Shown in pieces: positions 11,803 to 20,410 of a stretch of DNA of 35,997 nucleotides. The DNA is taken from assembly GCA_029259345.1 (NCBI GenBank), contig JAPDIX010000018.1:1-35997 (forward strand), written 5' to 3'. This DNA is from Archaeoglobi archaeon (GTDB lineage: Archaea; Halobacteriota; Archaeoglobi; Archaeoglobales; Archaeoglobaceae). The notes under the pieces are model-generated. The model was not told the origin of the DNA, ran no database searches, and saw only the letters and a list, made by a program, of their open reading frames with translations. Numbering within the stretch: the stretch's first letter is position 1; each line of letters begins with the position of its first letter. A program made the translations under genes and the position numbers.

Positions 11803-13397
11803 CTATCTCAAACGTCTGTATTCCTTTGCTTTTTTCAAAGCTTCATTTTTTAAGCTCTTCCTTTCGAAGTGGAGGTCTACACAGTGCTGTGGAGTAAGTC
11901 CCGCTTTATTCCTTATCTCTCTTGTAATCGTCTCTTTTTCAACCTTCTCCGCTTTATCCGTTAGAATCAGCAAGTCCACATCGTTTGCATTTTCAACTTC
12001 ACCCCTTGCCACGCTCCCTACGATATAAACCTCACTGTCGTCAAACCTCTTTCCTATTTCGTCCAGCACACCCGGAATCCATGTGTTCCATGTTCTGATG
12101 TTCTCTTCCCTTTTCCTTAGCTTTCTGTCAATGTAACTCTCGATCTCTCTCCCCGTCCAGAGCCTATATGCCCATTCGGAGAGAAATGAGACAGCAATTA
12201 AGGTAAACATGACCGACAGGGCATATGTGCTCTCTTTCATTATCCTCAATACCAGAATTGTAAAGGCAGATAATGCCATTGCTGCACCCAGAGAAGGAAT
12301 GACAGGATTTAGCCTGGTTTTGTTCCTAAGCTTTAACGCAGCAAGATTGACAGCAAAGAACACGAGCAAGAACCCTCCGCTACCCGCAGTCGCTATCGTT
12401 TCGAGGTTTGCAGTGTTTGATAAGATGACTGAGAGCAGAGATACTACAACCAATCCCTCGTAAGCCTGCCTCCAAACCCTCCTCTCGATTGCATGAGGGA
12501 GCTGCCCGAACTTTGCCACCATGTAGCTTGCTCTTGCAGTGCCGTAAAGAGTTGCGTTGATTGCAGAGCTTGTTGAGGCCAAGGCTGCAAAGGTTACAAG
12601 CCAGAATCCAAACTTTCCCAGAGAGGGTTCTGCTGCTATTGCCAGAGCATAGTCTCTTGCTTGAACTATTTTATCGTATGGTAAAGTTCCAACTGTAATG
12701 ATGGCAATGAAGATGTAGATTAACATTACGAGTATTACGGAGGCGTAAAATGCTTTTGAAAGGACTCTTGGGTGCTCAACATCCCCTCCAGCGTTTGCGA
12801 TGAGTTCAAACCCCTCGTATGCGAGGAATATGATCATCCCACCTGCCACGATGCCGGTCGTATCAGCCCAGTAAGGGGGCATCAGTCTTTCCGGCCTGAC
12901 GAGAGCTATGCCAGCCCCTACAACAGCCATTAGGACTGTTATCTTGAAGGCAACAAGCAAGTCTTCAGCTCTCCCGCTCACAACTGCCCCGTAAGCATTG
13001 AGAATCGTGAAAAGCAGGATAACAAAGGTGACAAAGATGCTCCTGAGTAGTGGTATTCCAAGCGCATTAGCAGCATAGCTGCCGAATGCATAGGCATATA
13101 AAGACATCATTATAACATAGCTTATGAGAAGCAAAATGTTCATCCCACCGGAAAACAGCCCAGTCCCAAATGCTTTTGTCAGGAACTCAATAGTCTCTCC
13201 CTCGCTCGGATACCTCAGGCTAAGCTTGGCGTATGAATAGGCAGTTGTCAGCGCCACTATACCCGCAAGAAAAAAGGCTATTGGAGCAGCCCTTTGGTGA
13301 GCTGAACACTCAATCCAAGGACGGCAAATATGCCCCCACCAATCATCCCTCCAACGCCTAGGCTGAAAGCCTCCCAAAACCCGATTTTCTCACGCAT
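11803..13397 (-). pseudogene. APC-family amino acid permease with C-terminal nucleotidyltransferase domain; interrupted by a single-base frameshift near 13290-13292
   Basis: N-terminus 'MREKIGFWEAFSLGVGGMIGGGIFAVLGLSVQLTKG' lies in ORF 13278..13760; continuation 'AAPIAFFLAGIVALTTAYSYAKL' lies in ORF 11803..13377. C-terminal 'SEVYIVGSVARGEVENANDVDLLILTD' is an NTase motif. Confidence 0.8.
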
Positions 13398-13499
13398 ATA
13401 GCCTAAAATCTTGAGGTCATTTATACAAGTTTTTGTGAATCCTATAAAGCAGTTAAAAAGGAAAATTTTAACTACATAGTGAATCAGAAACAAACAAGC

Positions 13500-13517
13500 C
13501 CGATACTGAAGTATCGG
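13500..13517. promoter_or_regulatory. Perfect 8-bp inverted repeat CCGATACT-GA-AGTATCGG upstream of the redox operon
   Basis: Read directly; about 38 nt before the ATG at 13556. Confidence 0.45.
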
Positions 13518-13555
13518 ATTTACAGAACACCGATGTCTGAAAAAGAAAACAGGTG

Positions 13556-14764
13556 ATGTCTGTGAGAAAGATTGAGGTTGTGTTTGGTTTAACATTGTTG
13601 CTTTTAATATTGGTCGGCGCATTAGGAATACTGCAAATGCACACTCATCCCCTAATGCCCATCGAACCCTTTGAATCTGCAGAGGGAGTCCCTTGGAGGC
13701 TGTTGGTTGCCCTTTATGTCTTCTTTGTGGTCTCCACCACTGGTCTCTGTATAATCGCATCTCTCGGAGAGGTTTTTGGGTTTACCAAGCTTGAGCCAAT
13801 AGTCAAGGAAGGTTTGCTGATGGCTCTCGTCACAATACTCGTCGGATTGATGACGATAGGTCTAGAGATAGAGCAGGTCATGAGGGGCTATTACGCTTTA
13901 GCCGGACATGTAAACACGACCAGTGTGATGTTCTGGATGATTATGTTTTACGTTCTGTATGTCATCTTTCTTGTCGTGGAGATGTGGTTCTACTTCTACG
14001 ATGATCTGATAAAGCAAAGAGAGGAAGGCGGACTCAGAGGTTTGGTTGCAAGAATACTTACCATTCCAAAAGCAAGTGATACAAAGGATTTTGCGAAAGT
14101 TATCGGATTTGTGACAGTTTTTACAGCCATAATCGCCCACAGCAACCTTGGAGCACTTTTCGGAGTTAACTATCCCCCCTTCTGGCATGGTCCGTTGCTC
14201 CCAGTCTACTTTATCCTCTCAGCCATAGTCAGCGGTGCAGCCCTTACAGTTGTTGGCGTCTACATTACAGACTACATCAGGGGTGTTAAAATCGAAGGTG
14301 AGAGATATGAAGCAATTCAGATGCTGAGGGTCATTCTTGGTTTTGCCATCGTTGTGACAATTTTCTTCACAGCATGGAAGTTCATAATTAAAGCCTATCC
14401 CAACTCCACACTACTATCAAGGGAGAGCGTCTTGCCGTTTGTAAATGGAGAGTTTGCCTTTAACTTCTGGGTAATGGAAGTTGTGGTGGGTCTGCTTATA
14501 CCCTTAATTCTGCTTGCAGCTCCTCAGACTGGAAGGAAAGCTGAAGGGGTTTTTGCAGCCTCTCTCCTCACAGTGATTGGTATTTTCTTCCTGAGAATTG
14601 ATCTTGTGATGGGCGGACTTGCTCTGAAACTCATTACAGGGATGAGCTTTCCGTCACCAGTCTATCATCCCTTTGAGATCATGGCAACGCTCGGCTTCTT
14701 TGCGCTCACGATTTTCCTCTACTATGTCGGTTACAAACTGCTGCCGATGGAGGTGAGAGAGTGA
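13556..14764 (+). CDS. NrfD/DsrP-like integral membrane quinone-interacting subunit
   Basis: Multi-TM; context with FeS protein; 'GGLALKLITGMSFPSPVYHPFEIMATLGFFAL'; SD AGGTG before ATG 13556. Confidence 0.8.
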   Translation: MSVRKIEVVFGLTLLLLILVGALGILQMHTHPLMPIEPFESAEGVPWRLLVALYVFFVVSTTGLCIIASLGEVFGFTKLEPIVKEGLLMALVTILVGLMTIGLEIEQVMRGYYALAGHVNTTSVMFWMIMFYVLYVIFLVVEMWFYFYDDLIKQREEGGLRGLVARILTIPKASDTKDFAKVIGFVTVFTAIIAHSNLGALFGVNYPPFWHGPLLPVYFILSAIVSGAALTVVGVYITDYIRGVKIEGERYEAIQMLRVILGFAIVVTIFFTAWKFIIKAYPNSTLLSRESVLPFVNGEFAFNFWVMEVVVGLLIPLILLAAPQTGRKAEGVFAASLLTVIGIFFLRIDLVMGGLALKLITGMSFPSPVYHPFEIMATLGFFALTIFLYYVGYKLLPMEVRE

Positions 14765-15498
14765 ACAGAAGGGACTTTCTCAAGCTAATCGCCGGATCTC
14801 TCCCGGCTGTAGCGCTTGTCAGAGGACAGAGTGCAGATGAGTCGGAGAAGAGCTATGTAATGGTTGTGGATGTTAACAAATGTACAGGGTGTGGAAATTG
14901 CGTTGTAGCGTGCAAGACTGAAAATGACGTGCCGATGAACTTCAAACTTTCCAGAACCTGGATTGAAGGTTATGCAGTCAAGGAGGAGATTCCGATTGAA
15001 GAAAGCGATGTTAGAAAGGAAGTACTCAGCACATCCAAAAACCCGTTCCTCGATAAAAGCTGGATTGAAACAACAAAGGGTCGAAAAACGTTTTACGTTC
15101 CAAAATTATGTAACCACTGCGCAAATGCACCTTGCGTGAACGTTTGCCCTGTTTACGCCAGATTTTATACCAAAGATGGAGTCGTTCTGGTGGACAAGGA
15201 GACTTGTATCGGTTGTAAGTACTGCATCGTCGCATGTCCTTATGGGGCAACCTTCATGCATCCAGAGCAGAAGGTTACAGACAAATGCACCTTCTGCTAC
15301 CACAGAATTAAGAGGGGTCTCAAACCCGCCTGCGTTCTTGCATGTCCAACAGGAGCGAGAGTTTTTGGAGATATAAACGATGAGAACAGCGAGGTAAGCA
15401 GATTGGTGAAAGAGAACAGGGTTGCTGTGTTGAAGCCAGAGGAAGGAACATTTCCAAGAGTGCTGTATATAGGTTTGGATTCGTATGTGGTGGAGTAA
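14761..15498 (+). CDS. Tat-exported polyferredoxin (DsrO/HmeA-like)
   Basis: 'MNRRDFLKLIAGS' twin-arginine signal; 'CTGCGNCVVACK', 'CNHCANAPCVNVCP', 'CIGCKYCIVACPYGA', 'CTFCYHRIKRGLKPACVLACP'. Confidence 0.93.
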   Translation: MNRRDFLKLIAGSLPAVALVRGQSADESEKSYVMVVDVNKCTGCGNCVVACKTENDVPMNFKLSRTWIEGYAVKEEIPIEESDVRKEVLSTSKNPFLDKSWIETTKGRKTFYVPKLCNHCANAPCVNVCPVYARFYTKDGVVLVDKETCIGCKYCIVACPYGATFMHPEQKVTDKCTFCYHRIKRGLKPACVLACPTGARVFGDINDENSEVSRLVKENRVAVLKPEEGTFPRVLYIGLDSYVVE

Positions 15499-15510
15499 AG
15501 GGTGGTTGGA

Positions 15511-15924
15511 GTGAAGAGAAGAACGTTGATACTTGGACTGGGGTTTGCAGTGCTTGTTTACTTAGTCCTTTTTTTCTACGTTTTCGGACTCTCTCCAATG
15601 ATCACAAGCAGCAGCCAGTCAAAGTGGGTGGAGATGGAACTTTCCAAGGAACCGAAATTTGCAGACACCGAAATTTGCAAGGAGTGTCATTATCAGCTTT
15701 ACATCGGAATGAAGAATCACTCAGCAGTAAACTGCGAAGCCTGTCATGGAAGTGGTGTTGAACACACCATCAAGAGGTCAAGTGATACCATTATGATAGA
15801 TAAAACAAGAGATTTCTGCCTGAAGTGTCACTTGGATGTAGATGGAAGGGACGTAATCAAAACAGTAAACGAGACCCACTATGCTGGAGTGTACTGTGTC
15901 GTCTGCCACGATCCTCATAAGTAG
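15511..15924 (+). CDS. Membrane-anchored tetraheme cytochrome c
   Basis: N-terminal TM segment; CKECH, CEACH, CLKCH, CVVCH. Start could be GTG 15502 or GTG 15511. Confidence 0.88.
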   Translation: MKRRTLILGLGFAVLVYLVLFFYVFGLSPMITSSSQSKWVEMELSKEPKFADTEICKECHYQLYIGMKNHSAVNCEACHGSGVEHTIKRSSDTIMIDKTRDFCLKCHLDVDGRDVIKTVNETHYAGVYCVVCHDPHK

Positions 15925-15997
15925 CTTGGAGGTGTGAAGTTTGAAAATCGGAAGATTAATAAGTAAATCCCGTAACGGCCGAACTGGAGGTTATCCG

Positions 15998-16345
15998 ATG
16001 AGTAGAAGCCTAATAGCCTTTACCATCCTTTTAAGTGTATTTGTCCTCGGATGCGTCCAGCAGGAAGAAATCACATCCGTTGAAGAGTTGAAGGACTGTC
16101 AATGCCATGAGCTTGCCTACAAGTATCCAAAGCACGTCAATGGCACACCCTACTGCCTTGACTGTCATGAGATCGAGAAACACCCTGATGTGGATGCTGT
16201 TATCTCAGCCGATAATTGTTCCGAATGTCACGAGTCAAGCCTCTTCAGAATTCACATGCCCAACTACTCCTGTTCGGTCTGCCATGGTGATGCAAAGACG
16301 ATACATGAGAAGTTTGAAAAGAGTTTTGTGGAGGGGACAGAATGA
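15998..16345 (+). CDS. Small lipoprotein-like multiheme cytochrome c (three CxxCH plus one CxCH)
   Basis: SD GGAGG before ATG 15998; lipobox 'VFVLGC'; 'DCQCH', CLDCH, CSECH, CSVCH. Confidence 0.85.
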   Translation: MSRSLIAFTILLSVFVLGCVQQEEITSVEELKDCQCHELAYKYPKHVNGTPYCLDCHEIEKHPDVDAVISADNCSECHESSLFRIHMPNYSCSVCHGDAKTIHEKFEKSFVEGTE

Positions 16346-16788
16346 GAAAGCTGGCTGTTTTTATTCTGGTCTCTATTTTTGTGATGCTACCTGTAATCTC
16401 ACTGGCAATAAGCGGCAGCGGTGACAATAATAAAACTGAGAATGAAGTACTGGGTTCTGACCTTTCATGCTTTGACTGTCACAGCAATGCGAGGATCTAT
16501 CCAAAACATCTCGACGGCTACAGTTACTGTGAAGAATGTCACGGTTTGGATATACATCCCATCCACACATTTGATTGCAAAACCTGCCATCAGAATGAGC
16601 CTTTAACACCCTTCTGCCATGGAGCAGACCCAGATGTTGTTGTTCCGGTTTCTGACGGGATTATCTGCAAAGCCTGTCACGAGAATAATCTTGTCGTCGT
16701 CCATGAGGAGGACTGCCAGAGCTGCCACCAGGACATTAACGAGATACACAGGAAAGCTGACATTGTAGGAGGTGTTGACGATGTTTGA
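16342..16788 (+). CDS. Pentaheme-like cytochrome c
   Basis: Signal sequence; CFDCH, CEECH, CKTCH, CKACH, CQSCH; additional TPFCH. Confidence 0.88.
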   Translation: MRKLAVFILVSIFVMLPVISLAISGSGDNNKTENEVLGSDLSCFDCHSNARIYPKHLDGYSYCEECHGLDIHPIHTFDCKTCHQNEPLTPFCHGADPDVVVPVSDGIICKACHENNLVVVHEEDCQSCHQDINEIHRKADIVGGVDDV

Positions 16789-18697
16789 AGTCATCTACTA
16801 CGTCATGCTCGTCGTCAGCCTTTCTGTCTTCTTCTATGGCCTGTGGCAGAAGTGGAAGTTCATAAACATGGGCTTGAAGGGAGAGGCCAGAACAAGCAAG
16901 CCCTTAGAAAGACTTTGGTTCGTCGTAAGGGACGGTTTGCTACTGGTGAGGCTGTATCTCCGTGAATCCAAAATGGGGCTGTCACACTTCCTTTTCCTCT
17001 GGGGTGTGGTTGTTATACTTGTCAACATTTTGATTTTCACGATCTCATTTGCGATTCCAGACCTCTTCAGGGCAACTTATCCATGGTTGAAAGCATCAAT
17101 GACAGCAGCGGGAGTTATGATCTTGCTTGGATTGGCGATAGCCGCCGTAAACAGGTATGTAATTAAACCAAGCAGATTTGCAAAGAAGTTTGAGTTTGCC
17201 TGGGATGACAATCCCGTGCTTGCTATCTTTATCCTTGCTGCACTCTTTGGATTTCTTCTCAAAGAATTTGTGAGGTTCAGCGAACTCAACTCAACCGCTC
17301 TACCTTACGTGCTCTGGTTCCTTCACACTGCATTAATCCTTGGATTCATTGCTCTCATCCCATACACAAAACTCCTCCACATTATAGCAGCGCCAATTAA
17401 CATCTTCACAAGAAGCGAAAGGAAACCAGGTGTGATGAGAGAACCACTGGGTGAAGACTACACGGGAGCAATTACTCCTCTCGACCTCACAAGAAGAGAC
17501 TTGCTTGCAAGCCTCGCATGTATGAGATGTGGAAGGTGTCAGGACATCTGTCCAGCGGCAAATTCAGGAACGACACTCAATCCCATGTTTCTGATGCAGA
17601 ACATACGGAGGCTGGAAAAGGTCCTTCTGGGGAAGAGTAAGGGTAATGGTAGTGAAGAGGGATCTGAGCAGGAAGTTCAGAATCCAGAAGATATTCTCCT
17701 GGTAGAGACGGTGCTTGATGAGGAGGCTGTTTGGGCGTGCACAACATGCAGAGCCTGCATGGAGATGTGCCCGGTTTACGTAGAGCAGATGGAAATCATA
17801 GGGGAAATGAGAAGGGGATTGATAGAGAGTGGTGAGACTCCACCGGACGTAAGGGATTTCCTGCAAAACATCCAGAAGCAGAAAAATCCATGGGGTGAGG
17901 GCAAGTTCAAGAGGGATCAGTGGATCAAAAAGAGTGAGATAGAAATTCCGGCTGTCAAGGAGAACCCTGAATTTGAGTGGCTGTGGTTTGTCGGCTGTGC
18001 CCACAGCTTTGACAACAGAAACATTCCGGTTGCAAGAAAACTTGCAAGACTTCTAAATGATCTTGAAATAAACTATGCGGTTCTCGGCAGGGAAGAGGGA
18101 TGTTGTGGAAACGACGTGAGGAGAGTGGGTGAGGAGGGACTGTTCCAGGTGCTCATGGAAGAGAACATGCAGACCTTCGAGAAATACGGTGTTGAAAGGT
18201 TGTTTGCCACCTCACCCCACTGCTACAACACTTTCAAGAACGAGTATGGGGGATATGAGGTCAAGTTCATACTTGAAATTCTATACGATGCAATAAAGAG
18301 CGGTAAGCTTGAGCTGAAGTATCCCATAAACAAGAGAGTGACCTTCCACGACCCATGCTATCTCGGAAGATATAACGGAATGTACGATCTCCCAAGGGAA
18401 ATCCTGAAGGCAATTCCGGGAATTGAGCTTGTTGAAATGCCGAGAAACAGAGAGAGGAGTTTTTGCTGCGGTGCCGGTGGAGGAAACCTCGTGAGAGAGT
18501 ATCCGGGAGAGGACAGACCGAATAACATCAGAGCAAGAGAGGCAGCATCAACGAATGCTGAAATACTGGCAGTAGCCTGCCCTTTCTGCATGATAATGCT
18601 CGAAGATGGTGTTAAGGCAGAAAAGCTGGACGACAGGATACAAGTCCTCGATGTTATTGAGCTGGTTTACGAGTCAGTTTACGGCAAGGAAGAATAA
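16781..18697 (+). CDS. Fused cytochrome b (NarI/HdrE/DsrM-like) and HdrD/DsrK-like FeS subunit
   Basis: N-terminal TMs; 'CMRCGRCQDICPAANSG', 'CTTCRACMEMCPVYVEQ'; CCG domains 'EGCCGND' and 'FCCGAGGGN...ACPFC'. Confidence 0.93.
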   Translation: MFEVIYYVMLVVSLSVFFYGLWQKWKFINMGLKGEARTSKPLERLWFVVRDGLLLVRLYLRESKMGLSHFLFLWGVVVILVNILIFTISFAIPDLFRATYPWLKASMTAAGVMILLGLAIAAVNRYVIKPSRFAKKFEFAWDDNPVLAIFILAALFGFLLKEFVRFSELNSTALPYVLWFLHTALILGFIALIPYTKLLHIIAAPINIFTRSERKPGVMREPLGEDYTGAITPLDLTRRDLLASLACMRCGRCQDICPAANSGTTLNPMFLMQNIRRLEKVLLGKSKGNGSEEGSEQEVQNPEDILLVETVLDEEAVWACTTCRACMEMCPVYVEQMEIIGEMRRGLIESGETPPDVRDFLQNIQKQKNPWGEGKFKRDQWIKKSEIEIPAVKENPEFEWLWFVGCAHSFDNRNIPVARKLARLLNDLEINYAVLGREEGCCGNDVRRVGEEGLFQVLMEENMQTFEKYGVERLFATSPHCYNTFKNEYGGYEVKFILEILYDAIKSGKLELKYPINKRVTFHDPCYLGRYNGMYDLPREILKAIPGIELVEMPRNRERSFCCGAGGGNLVREYPGEDRPNNIRAREAASTNAEILAVACPFCMIMLEDGVKAEKLDDRIQVLDVIELVYESVYGKEE

Positions 18698-18703
18698 AAA
18701 ATT

Positions 18704-20410
18704 TTAAGCGGATTTTTTAATTTCTTCTTCTCTCAAAACCCTCCTCAGGATCTTCCCAACCGCAGACTTCGGCAGTTCATCTCTGAACTCGACTATTCTT
18801 GGAACTTTGTAAGCTGCTAGCCTTTCTCTGCAGAATTGAATAATCTCCTCCTCACTAACTTTACCCTTGTATTCTGGCTTTAGAACGATAAATGCCTTTA
18901 CAGTCTCACCCCTGTATGGATCGGGAACACCAACAACTGCAGCCTCAGTAACAGCAGGATGCTCGTAAAGAACCTCCTCAACCTCTCTCGGATAGATGTT
19001 ATAACCACCAGCAATTATCATATCTTTCTTCCTATCAACTATGTAGAAGTATCCGTCTTCATCCATCTTTGCCACGTCTCCAGTCAGTAACCATCCGTTG
19101 ACCAGCACCTTCTTTGTCTCTTCCTCCATCTTGTAGTAGCCCTTCATCACCTGCGATCCCTTGATGACTATTTCTCCAACTTCGCCAACAGGTAGAATTT
19201 TACCCTCATCATCTATGATCACTGCGTAGGTGTCTGGAAATGGAATCCCTATACTCCCCTCCTTGTTCAGCCCATAAACCGGATTTCCAAGTGCTACAGG
19301 GGAAGTTTCGCTCAGTCCATATCCCTCAACAAGCTTTCCCCCAGTTATTTCCTCAAATCTCCTCTTCACTTCGATTGGTAAGGGTGCAGCACCACTTATG
19401 CAGGCTTTAACTGACCTCAAATTGTACTTCTTTACCTCGGGGTAGTTTATTATTGCCGCATACATCGTTGGGACACCGCAGAAAATAGTTATTCCGTACT
19501 TTTGAATGCTTTCGAGAAGTCTCTTGATATCTCTTGGGTCGGGTAGGAGGATTATAGTCCCTCCGAGAGCTATAGGAGCGTTCATAGAGGTTGTCATCCC
19601 GAAGCTGTGGAAGTATGGAAGAACTCCGGCAAACACATCATCTGGAGACCTGTCAGTGACCCATTCGAGTGTCTGATATACGTTGGCAACAAGATTGTAG
19701 TGGGTGGACATCACTGCCTTAGGCACACCGGTTGTTCCGCCGGTGTATAGGAATGTTGCGACATCTTCTTTGGGATCTATTTCTGGTCTGTCCTTTGTTG
19801 GAGGACTCTTTAGCACATCTTTCCAGTAAACAACCTTATCACTTTTCTCAACCTTTACCTTTTCCTTCTTCAGTGGATACAGGAAGTTAAGGGGGAATGG
19901 CAGATAGTCTTCAATTTTACATATAACAGCCTTTTTTATCTTTCCTTCCCTTATCAGGTTCTTGACTCTCGGGTAAACCATCTCCACGAAAAAGCCATAC
20001 TCAGCTTCACTGTTTTCGAGAATATATGTGATTTCCCTCTCTGTATAGAGCGGGTTACACTGCACAACGGTTGCACCTGTCTTAAGAATACCATAGTATG
20101 CTGCGACATAGTGGGGGGTGTTGGGTAGGTCAACAATCACTCTGCTACCTTTCCTAACACCAAGTTTGTATAGGAAGCTAGCAACTCTATCGCTCATCTC
20201 ATCAACTTGCCTGTAAGTTATTTTCTTTCCAAAGAATATAAGAGCAACCTTATCTGGATATTTGCTGGCTGTTTCCTCCAGAAGTTTGTAGAGGGGTACC
20301 TCAGGATAATCTATGTTTGGTCTCACCCCCTCATCGTAGAATTTGAGCCATATTCTGTTTATCTCTTTCTCATCTACATCCCTTATTGTTTTTCCTTCTA
20401 CTCCAAGCAT
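18704..20410 (-). CDS. Long-chain fatty-acid-CoA ligase (AMP-forming)
   Basis: 'FLYTGGTTGVPKAVMSTHYNL', 'GYGLSETSP', 'WLLTGDVAKMDEDGYFYIVDRKKDMIIAGGYNIYPREVEE', 'KSAVGKILRRVLRE'. Confidence 0.96.
   Translation of the reverse strand: MLGVEGKTIRDVDEKEINRIWLKFYDEGVRPNIDYPEVPLYKLLEETASKYPDKVALIFFGKKITYRQVDEMSDRVASFLYKLGVRKGSRVIVDLPNTPHYVAAYYGILKTGATVVQCNPLYTEREITYILENSEAEYGFFVEMVYPRVKNLIREGKIKKAVICKIEDYLPFPLNFLYPLKKEKVKVEKSDKVVYWKDVLKSPPTKDRPEIDPKEDVATFLYTGGTTGVPKAVMSTHYNLVANVYQTLEWVTDRSPDDVFAGVLPYFHSFGMTTSMNAPIALGGTIILLPDPRDIKRLLESIQKYGITIFCGVPTMYAAIINYPEVKKYNLRSVKACISGAAPLPIEVKRRFEEITGGKLVEGYGLSETSPVALGNPVYGLNKEGSIGIPFPDTYAVIIDDEGKILPVGEVGEIVIKGSQVMKGYYKMEEETKKVLVNGWLLTGDVAKMDEDGYFYIVDRKKDMIIAGGYNIYPREVEEVLYEHPAVTEAAVVGVPDPYRGETVKAFIVLKPEYKGKVSEEEIIQFCRERLAAYKVPRIVEFRDELPKSAVGKILRRVLREEEIKKSA

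Follow-up and report, generated by a model that had tools for sequence, protein, structure and literature searches.

How electrons from fatty-acid oxidation, which lie near -10 mV, return to the respiratory chain in hyperthermophilic archaea is not settled, and a six-gene membrane redox cluster of an Archaeoglobi archaeon (NCBI GenBank assembly GCA_029259345.1) raises the question of which electrons it carries and where to. The whole stretch of DNA analyzed, here called the window, comprises positions 1 to 35,997 of contig JAPDIX010000018.1 (contig C9 of an Archaeoglobus-like genome of 1.49 Mb, 80% complete). Six open reading frames (ORFs), P-O-J1-J2-J3-MK, lie head to tail on its + strand at 13556-18697, just where a sequence-only reading had placed them. 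That reading took the last gene, MK, for a DsrM+DsrK-like fusion, with a thiol/disulfide or other cytoplasmic acceptor as a possible partner. We assign MK instead, by sequence, fold, ligand set, neighborhood and co-occurrence, to the EtfD/EMO family, and because of this membership its most likely cytoplasmic partner is electron-transfer flavoprotein (ETF). Probably, MK is an EtfD/EMO-type ETF:menaquinone oxidoreductase which brings beta-oxidation electrons to the membrane and is coupled to an NrfBCD-like menaquinol:cytochrome c module. The features are as follows.

P, about 13556-14764, + strand: NrfD-like integral membrane quinone-reactive subunit with about 10 transmembrane (TM) helices; Pfam NrfD 129 bits, E 4e-37
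O, 14761-15498, + strand: Tat-exported polyferredoxin with four [4Fe-4S] sites (16 Cys); RRDFLK motif, Fer4_11 and other matches
J1, 15502-15924 (start may be GTG 15511), + strand: membrane-anchored tetraheme cytochrome c with four CxxCH and one N-terminal TM helix
J2, 15998-16345, + strand: lipoprotein cytochrome c with lipobox VLG-C, three CxxCH and an invariant CxCH (DCQCHE)
J3, 16342-16788, + strand: exported pentaheme cytochrome c, paralog of J2, with five CxxCH and a conserved single-cysteine CH site
MK, 16781-18697 (16772 in the sequence-only reading), + strand: EtfD/EMO-type cytochrome b, two [4Fe-4S] and two CCG domains, fused
Acyl-CoA synthetase (context), 18704-20410, - strand: convergent, 6 bp from the MK stop; AMP-binding 351 bits

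The same six-gene order is complete in four relatives (P 73-95% identical) and interrupted by a contig end in a fifth, therefore the cluster is not an assembly artefact; that it is unique to the window genome was rejected on the same grounds. Of the named relatives that carry the cluster, Archaeoglobus sp. UBA230 is the closest (MK 94-95% identical). P and O overlap by 4 bp, as do J2 and J3, and MK overlaps J3. ATG 16781 (giving 638 aa) is a more likely start of MK than GTG 16772 because it is preceded by the Shine-Dalgarno sequence GGAGGTG; residue numbers below nevertheless count from 16772. The at least 12 CxxCH motifs expected earlier were recovered as four in J1, three in J2 and five in J3, against 0.03-0.05 in each shuffled protein.

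Family and metal-centre ligands of the fused subunit

MK combines 5 TM helices with two [4Fe-4S] sites and two CCG domains. Its best match in a PDB sequence search was 9ojn, the structure of Mycobacterium smegmatis EtfD (PMC13083937), with an E of 5e-75, while the next best reached only 4e-6. An AlphaFold2 model of MK built from 31 homologs (pLDDT 88) was matched by Foldseek to the same EtfD structure over its full length (E 8e-33, TM-score 0.88 by query length), and the remaining chains match only the HdrB-like or NarI-like parts; as the fold library may hold no HdrDE/DsrMK structures, the fold search alone could not have favored these two. An NCBIfam search with MK gave the labels TfrB, LdhH and TmcB, with no EtfD/EMO model among the matches, and for this protein such hidden Markov model labels taken alone are misleading.

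Ligand positions of EtfD (taken from PMC13083937) were mapped on MK. Its heme-b His pair is kept as His72 and His203, both invariant, and the same holds for the two-cubane cysteines (C250/253/256/260/323/326/329/333) and for those of the D2 cluster (Cys529/565/566/603/606). His583, which caps the D2 cluster of EtfD and renders it non-catalytic (PMC13083937), has an invariant equivalent in His483. There are only three His in the membrane part of MK; from helix order and the positions of H72 and H203 the heme site is predicted to lie at the cytoplasmic side, and this part has no set of residues to bind a second heme on the periplasmic side. As a member of the EtfD/EMO family, MK would oxidize reduced ETF and reduce menaquinone.

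The first CCG site (D1) is different. All archaeal members have Cys409, Cys444, Cys445, Ser481 and Cys484. At the corresponding positions the residues are Cys, Cys, Thr (or Ser/Val), Cys and Cys in both EtfD and the bacterial homologs; the EtfD-type linear [3Fe-4S] motif, retained in the bacterial homologs, is missing from MK. Judged by its residues, D1 of MK is neither the linear [3Fe-4S] set of EtfD nor a full Hdr set. FadF and DgcB are without D1 cysteines yet are thought to accept electrons from ETF (PMC13083937). The EtfD-type D1 motif is a variant feature, not one required for membership of the EtfD/EMO family.

Genomic neighborhood and distribution

Full-length bacterial homologs of MK, 33-37% identical, are found directly after etfB-etfA in two Acidobacteria (L061, L063) and, at loci L053 and L064, just downstream of an acyl-CoA synthetase gene. 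In the archaeal sister family f2, locus L097 (genome G055) has an MK homolog immediately after etfBA, and at L099 and L077 (in genomes G056 and G055) an acyl-CoA dehydrogenase gene overlaps or adjoins the closer MK ortholog. The acyl-CoA synthetase gene convergent with MK is common to the window and UBA230.

We surveyed 59 genomes of the class Archaeoglobi; MK is present in 34, as a full-length gene in 31 and truncated at a contig end in 3. Each of the 34 carries three or more acyl-CoA dehydrogenase matches, compared with 6/25 genomes without MK; shared ancestry inflates such co-occurrence counts and their Fisher values, a point against our interpretation, and only their direction is relied on. 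A strong ETF match is present in 32 of the 34 MK genomes. A dsrA match, on the other hand, is missing in 23 of them, and 22 genomes with dsrA are without MK.

Three architectures were distinguished: MK alone (type A, 13 genomes, including AF0755 of Archaeoglobus fulgidus), J2-J3-MK with unlinked P-O-J1 (type B, 10 in the tree and the truncated G049) and the complete P-O-J1-J2-J3-MK (type C: the window, G003, G009, G012 and G021, with G011 cut at a contig end). In several type B loci an acyl-CoA synthetase gene precedes J2-J3-MK on the same strand. A quick maximum-likelihood tree of MK recovers each type as one clade (support 93, 100 and 96 for A, B and C), and B and C together as one clade (100). 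No genome of family f1 has both A and B/C. Genera g1 and g2 each contain type A as well as type C, suggesting replacement or transfer. J2, J3 and P (at least 40% identity) are found in the same 17 genomes, with P alone in G055. In 11 type B genomes (including G032) the P-O-J1 genes are apart from J2-J3-MK, forming a three-gene cluster in all those whose surroundings were read. J1, with 19 copies in 18 Archaeoglobi genomes, is the third gene of P-O-J1. Among 394 genomes of the phylum no clear homolog of J2 was detected outside Archaeoglobi, and P had one distant homolog there (32%). In Archaeoglobus GB_MAG3_049 the six genes P-O-J1-J2-J3-MK are immediately preceded by a QmoC-like gene and another J2-J3 pair (L107, 3294-5281), so that a single run of genes encodes five cytochromes.

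AF0755 is the type A ortholog of MK, 67% identical. We take genome G001 to be A. fulgidus. Its fused gene adjoins an opposite-strand gene, as AF0755 adjoins AF0756, and AF0755 was up-regulated together with many beta-oxidation genes in one and the same condition (PMC3949148). At A. fulgidus locus L101 an unfused CCG paralog lies between the orthologous acyl-CoA synthetase gene and the gene for a permease like that of the window; this paralog and its window-genome counterparts have an SPHC motif in common. Unfused proteins related to the CCG part of MK (identity about 58-65%) were seen at L072, L101, L103, L104, L105 and L107; some adjoin HdrA/QmoA-like flavoproteins, and they are present also in genomes without MK. 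The permease of the window (- strand, 11803-13377 and 13278-13760) is an amino-acid permease that carries a nucleotidyltransferase domain at its C-terminus. Its N-terminal part (MREKIGFWEAF...) is read in a different frame, so the gene looks frameshifted in the assembly near an A run at about 13270.

The P-O-J1 module and the cytochromes

P scores weakly on the NrfD, HybB, HmcC and QrcD equivalog models, all far below cut-off (NrfD 57/348 bits, score/cut-off), and is 22.8% identical to DsrP of its own genome; Pfam NrfD_2 (PF14589) had no match anywhere. Its AlphaFold2 model, from five orthologs only, has a pLDDT of 59. For O the values are 204/416 on TtrB, 191/200 on DsrO and 161/378 on NrfC. 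Over the cluster, models of the Hmc, Tmc and Qrc systems gave 41/550 (HmcC), 34/570 (QrcD), 47/750 (HmcF) and 80/735 (TmcB), and no equivalog cut-off was reached. The order and cytochrome set are unlike those of Dsr, Hme, Hmc, Tmc or Qrc; a deviating arrangement is what the sequence-only reading had maintained. Equally borne out is its view of a membrane redox system, here found to be conserved, in which an NrfD-type subunit and periplasmic cytochromes c are joined to a cytochrome b that reacts with quinone. By analogy P-O-J1 would oxidize menaquinol and feed cytochromes. No large multiheme cytochrome is encoded in the cluster. In G055 P-O-J1 is followed by 10- and 12-heme cytochromes, and related J1'-O'-P' clusters lie beside a 12-heme cytochrome (G024) and an 8-heme cytochrome (G012).

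J2 had been described as a lipoprotein with three CxxCH, and both its motifs and lipobox stand, while a fourth site and its paralogy with J3 (E about 1e-12 by tblastn) had been missed. At this site, residues 33-38 (DCQCHE), CxCH replaces the first CxxCH and is invariant in every J2 homolog aligned; it is possibly a non-canonical heme attachment site. No paper on a CXCH heme motif was found in a search of the open-access literature, which is no proof of absence. J3 has a conserved extra Cys-His (PFCHGADP/LCHSAPSD) that lacks a second cysteine at the -3 position, although pentaheme homologs of greater distance show an ordinary CxxCH where it aligns; in J3 this could be a single-thioether site or a structural or axial ligand. 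In a scan of the genome for the CxxCH pattern the dense groups among the matches listed were the window cluster and DsrJ, and no large multiheme acceptor was obvious among them, although the 80% complete genome may still hold one.

Proposed electron path and alternatives

From these results we infer an electron path, its direction, a quinone step from MK to P and possibly a complex of all six proteins. Fatty-acid electrons would pass from acyl-CoA dehydrogenase to ETF and on to the CCG clusters of MK, then through the two [4Fe-4S] clusters and the cytoplasmic-side heme b to menaquinone. P would re-oxidize the menaquinol, and electrons would move through O and J1 to J2/J3, from which a periplasmic or extracellular acceptor could be reduced. 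A route from ETF to J2/J3 via menaquinone and P is the likelier one because the heme of MK is placed at the cytoplasmic side and a ligand set for a second heme is missing. Such a loop is similar to the quinone cycling proposed for DsrMK and DsrJOP (PMC8076601), with ETF in place of DsrC. Among the computed results in favor of the proposed system is the occurrence of J2, J3 and P-O-J1 in the same 17 genomes though they are unlinked in 11. It is a rather doubtful further step to regard the system as an ETF dehydrogenase wired directly to a periplasmic cytochrome chain of its own, bypassing the general menaquinol pool and with one heme at the invariant CxCH; if so, fatty-acid electrons would exit the cell via cytochromes c without that pool. 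AF0755 and its orthologs would be recast from a fused heterodisulfide reductase for sulfite reduction to the archaeal ETF dehydrogenase, which relatives without dsrA have as well. A search of the open-access literature, which did find AF0755, returned no description of the cytochrome-linked form of MK; subscription papers were outside its scope.

Several further points weigh against an ETF:menaquinone oxidoreductase coupled to P-O-J1. The first CCG site is unlike that of EtfD, with a CC doublet and Ser in place of Cys581. Six genomes with many acyl-CoA dehydrogenases have no MK, and five of these have an unfused paralog about 65% identical to its CCG part. The etfBA genes are not within the window cluster. 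AF0755 is induced with H2/CO2 and thiosulfate, and the authors read it as part of a route from Vht to DsrC (PMC3949148). In type B, J2-J3 are linked to MK rather than P, an arrangement compatible with direct contact no less than with a quinone step. The role of the archaeal MK members is, finally, one predicted by computation.

Direct contact would mean that MK sends ETF electrons straight across the membrane to J2/J3, avoiding an unfavorable menaquinone step, and that P-O-J1 feeds or drains the same cytochromes separately. We consider this improbable. J2-J3 adjoin MK wherever found, P-O-J1 is separate in type B, and the second J2-J3 pair of GB_MAG3_049, after a gene for a QmoC-like cytochrome b, suggests docking of J2/J3 on cytochrome b subunits. 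However, with only three His in its membrane part, H72 and H203 toward the cytoplasm, MK is without periplasm-side heme ligands and therefore a direct jump to J2/J3 would be long.

It is quite improbable that the cluster encodes a DsrMKJOP/Hme-like complex in which menaquinol or periplasmic electrons reduce a cytoplasmic disulfide (e.g. DsrC) via the K part. Its general anatomy, a cytochrome b with CCG domains, an NrfD protein, an iron-sulfur protein and cytochrome c, is DsrMKJOP-like, O comes near the DsrO cut-off, and AF0755 was published as a fused hdrDE/DsrMK feeding DsrC (PMC3949148, PMC4543118). Yet MK reaches only 62.6 bits on the DsrK model (cut-off 400), on which DsrK of the same genome scores 624. 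BLAST of MK against that DsrK gave short matches (37% over 81 residues) and against its DsrM nothing significant; the 25 families listed for MK include no DsrM model. The DsrJ and DsrP models were unmatched by J1-J3 or P, a true DsrMKJOP is encoded elsewhere in the genome, D2 of MK has the EtfD-type capping His, and MK is present in 23 genomes without a dsrA match and absent from 22 with one. The DsrM+DsrK fusion and the disulfide partner are accordingly not supported.

Also quite improbable is a reverse flow from a low-potential periplasmic donor (e.g. hydrogenase via cytochromes) through P-O-J, menaquinone and MK to ETF and enoyl-CoA reduction. In its favor, both directions have been proposed for EMO, the reverse one in Syntrophus (PMC8805022), and AF0755 rises with H2/CO2 alongside vht hydrogenase and lipid genes (PMC3949148). 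Against it, A. fulgidus is without these cytochromes, no donor enzyme is linked, and the majority of type B genomes are without dsrA while retaining large sets of acyl-CoA dehydrogenases, which fits fatty-acid oxidation.

Comparison with known systems

As in DsrMKJOP and Hme, a cytochrome b-CCG unit and a periplasmic unit of iron-sulfur protein, cytochrome and NrfD protein would be joined through quinone, but no subunit of the cluster passes Dsr models. The window genome has dsrA, and its DsrMKJOP genes stand on contig C10 in the order O-P-M-K-J. At this locus (L074, 2730-9918) etfB-etfA stand directly upstream of them, after a 3-hydroxyacyl-CoA dehydrogenase/hydratase gene; a beta-oxidation link to DsrMKJOP as well is possible.

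NrfBCD resembles the P-O-J1 module in having NrfD-like, NrfC-like and small multiheme cytochrome genes in one operon, by analogy a quinol-oxidizing one. The order P-O-J1, a cluster without NrfA, a membrane-anchored tetraheme J1 and scores under every equivalog cut-off set the module apart.

EtfD (Mycobacterium, Rv0338c; 9ojn) and EMO (Syntrophus/Syntrophomonas, DUF224) share with MK the fusion of a NarI-like cytochrome b to two [4Fe-4S] and two CCG domains, and the likeness extends to the heme-b His pair, cubane cysteines, D2 ligands, capping His and association with ETF and beta-oxidation. D1 of MK (CC doublet and Ser; Cys409, 444, 445, 484) differs from the linear [3Fe-4S] set of EtfD and also from FadF/DgcB, whose D1 cysteines are missing, and the EMO of Syntrophus was reported as diheme, unlike the prediction for MK. 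AF0755 stands alone, with no close relatives of J2/J3 or P-O-J1 in the A. fulgidus genome. Unlike EtfD and EMO, the MK of the window has genes for three cytochromes c, a polyferredoxin and an NrfD protein beside its own; one lineage would tie an ETF dehydrogenase to a dedicated cytochrome and NrfD module.

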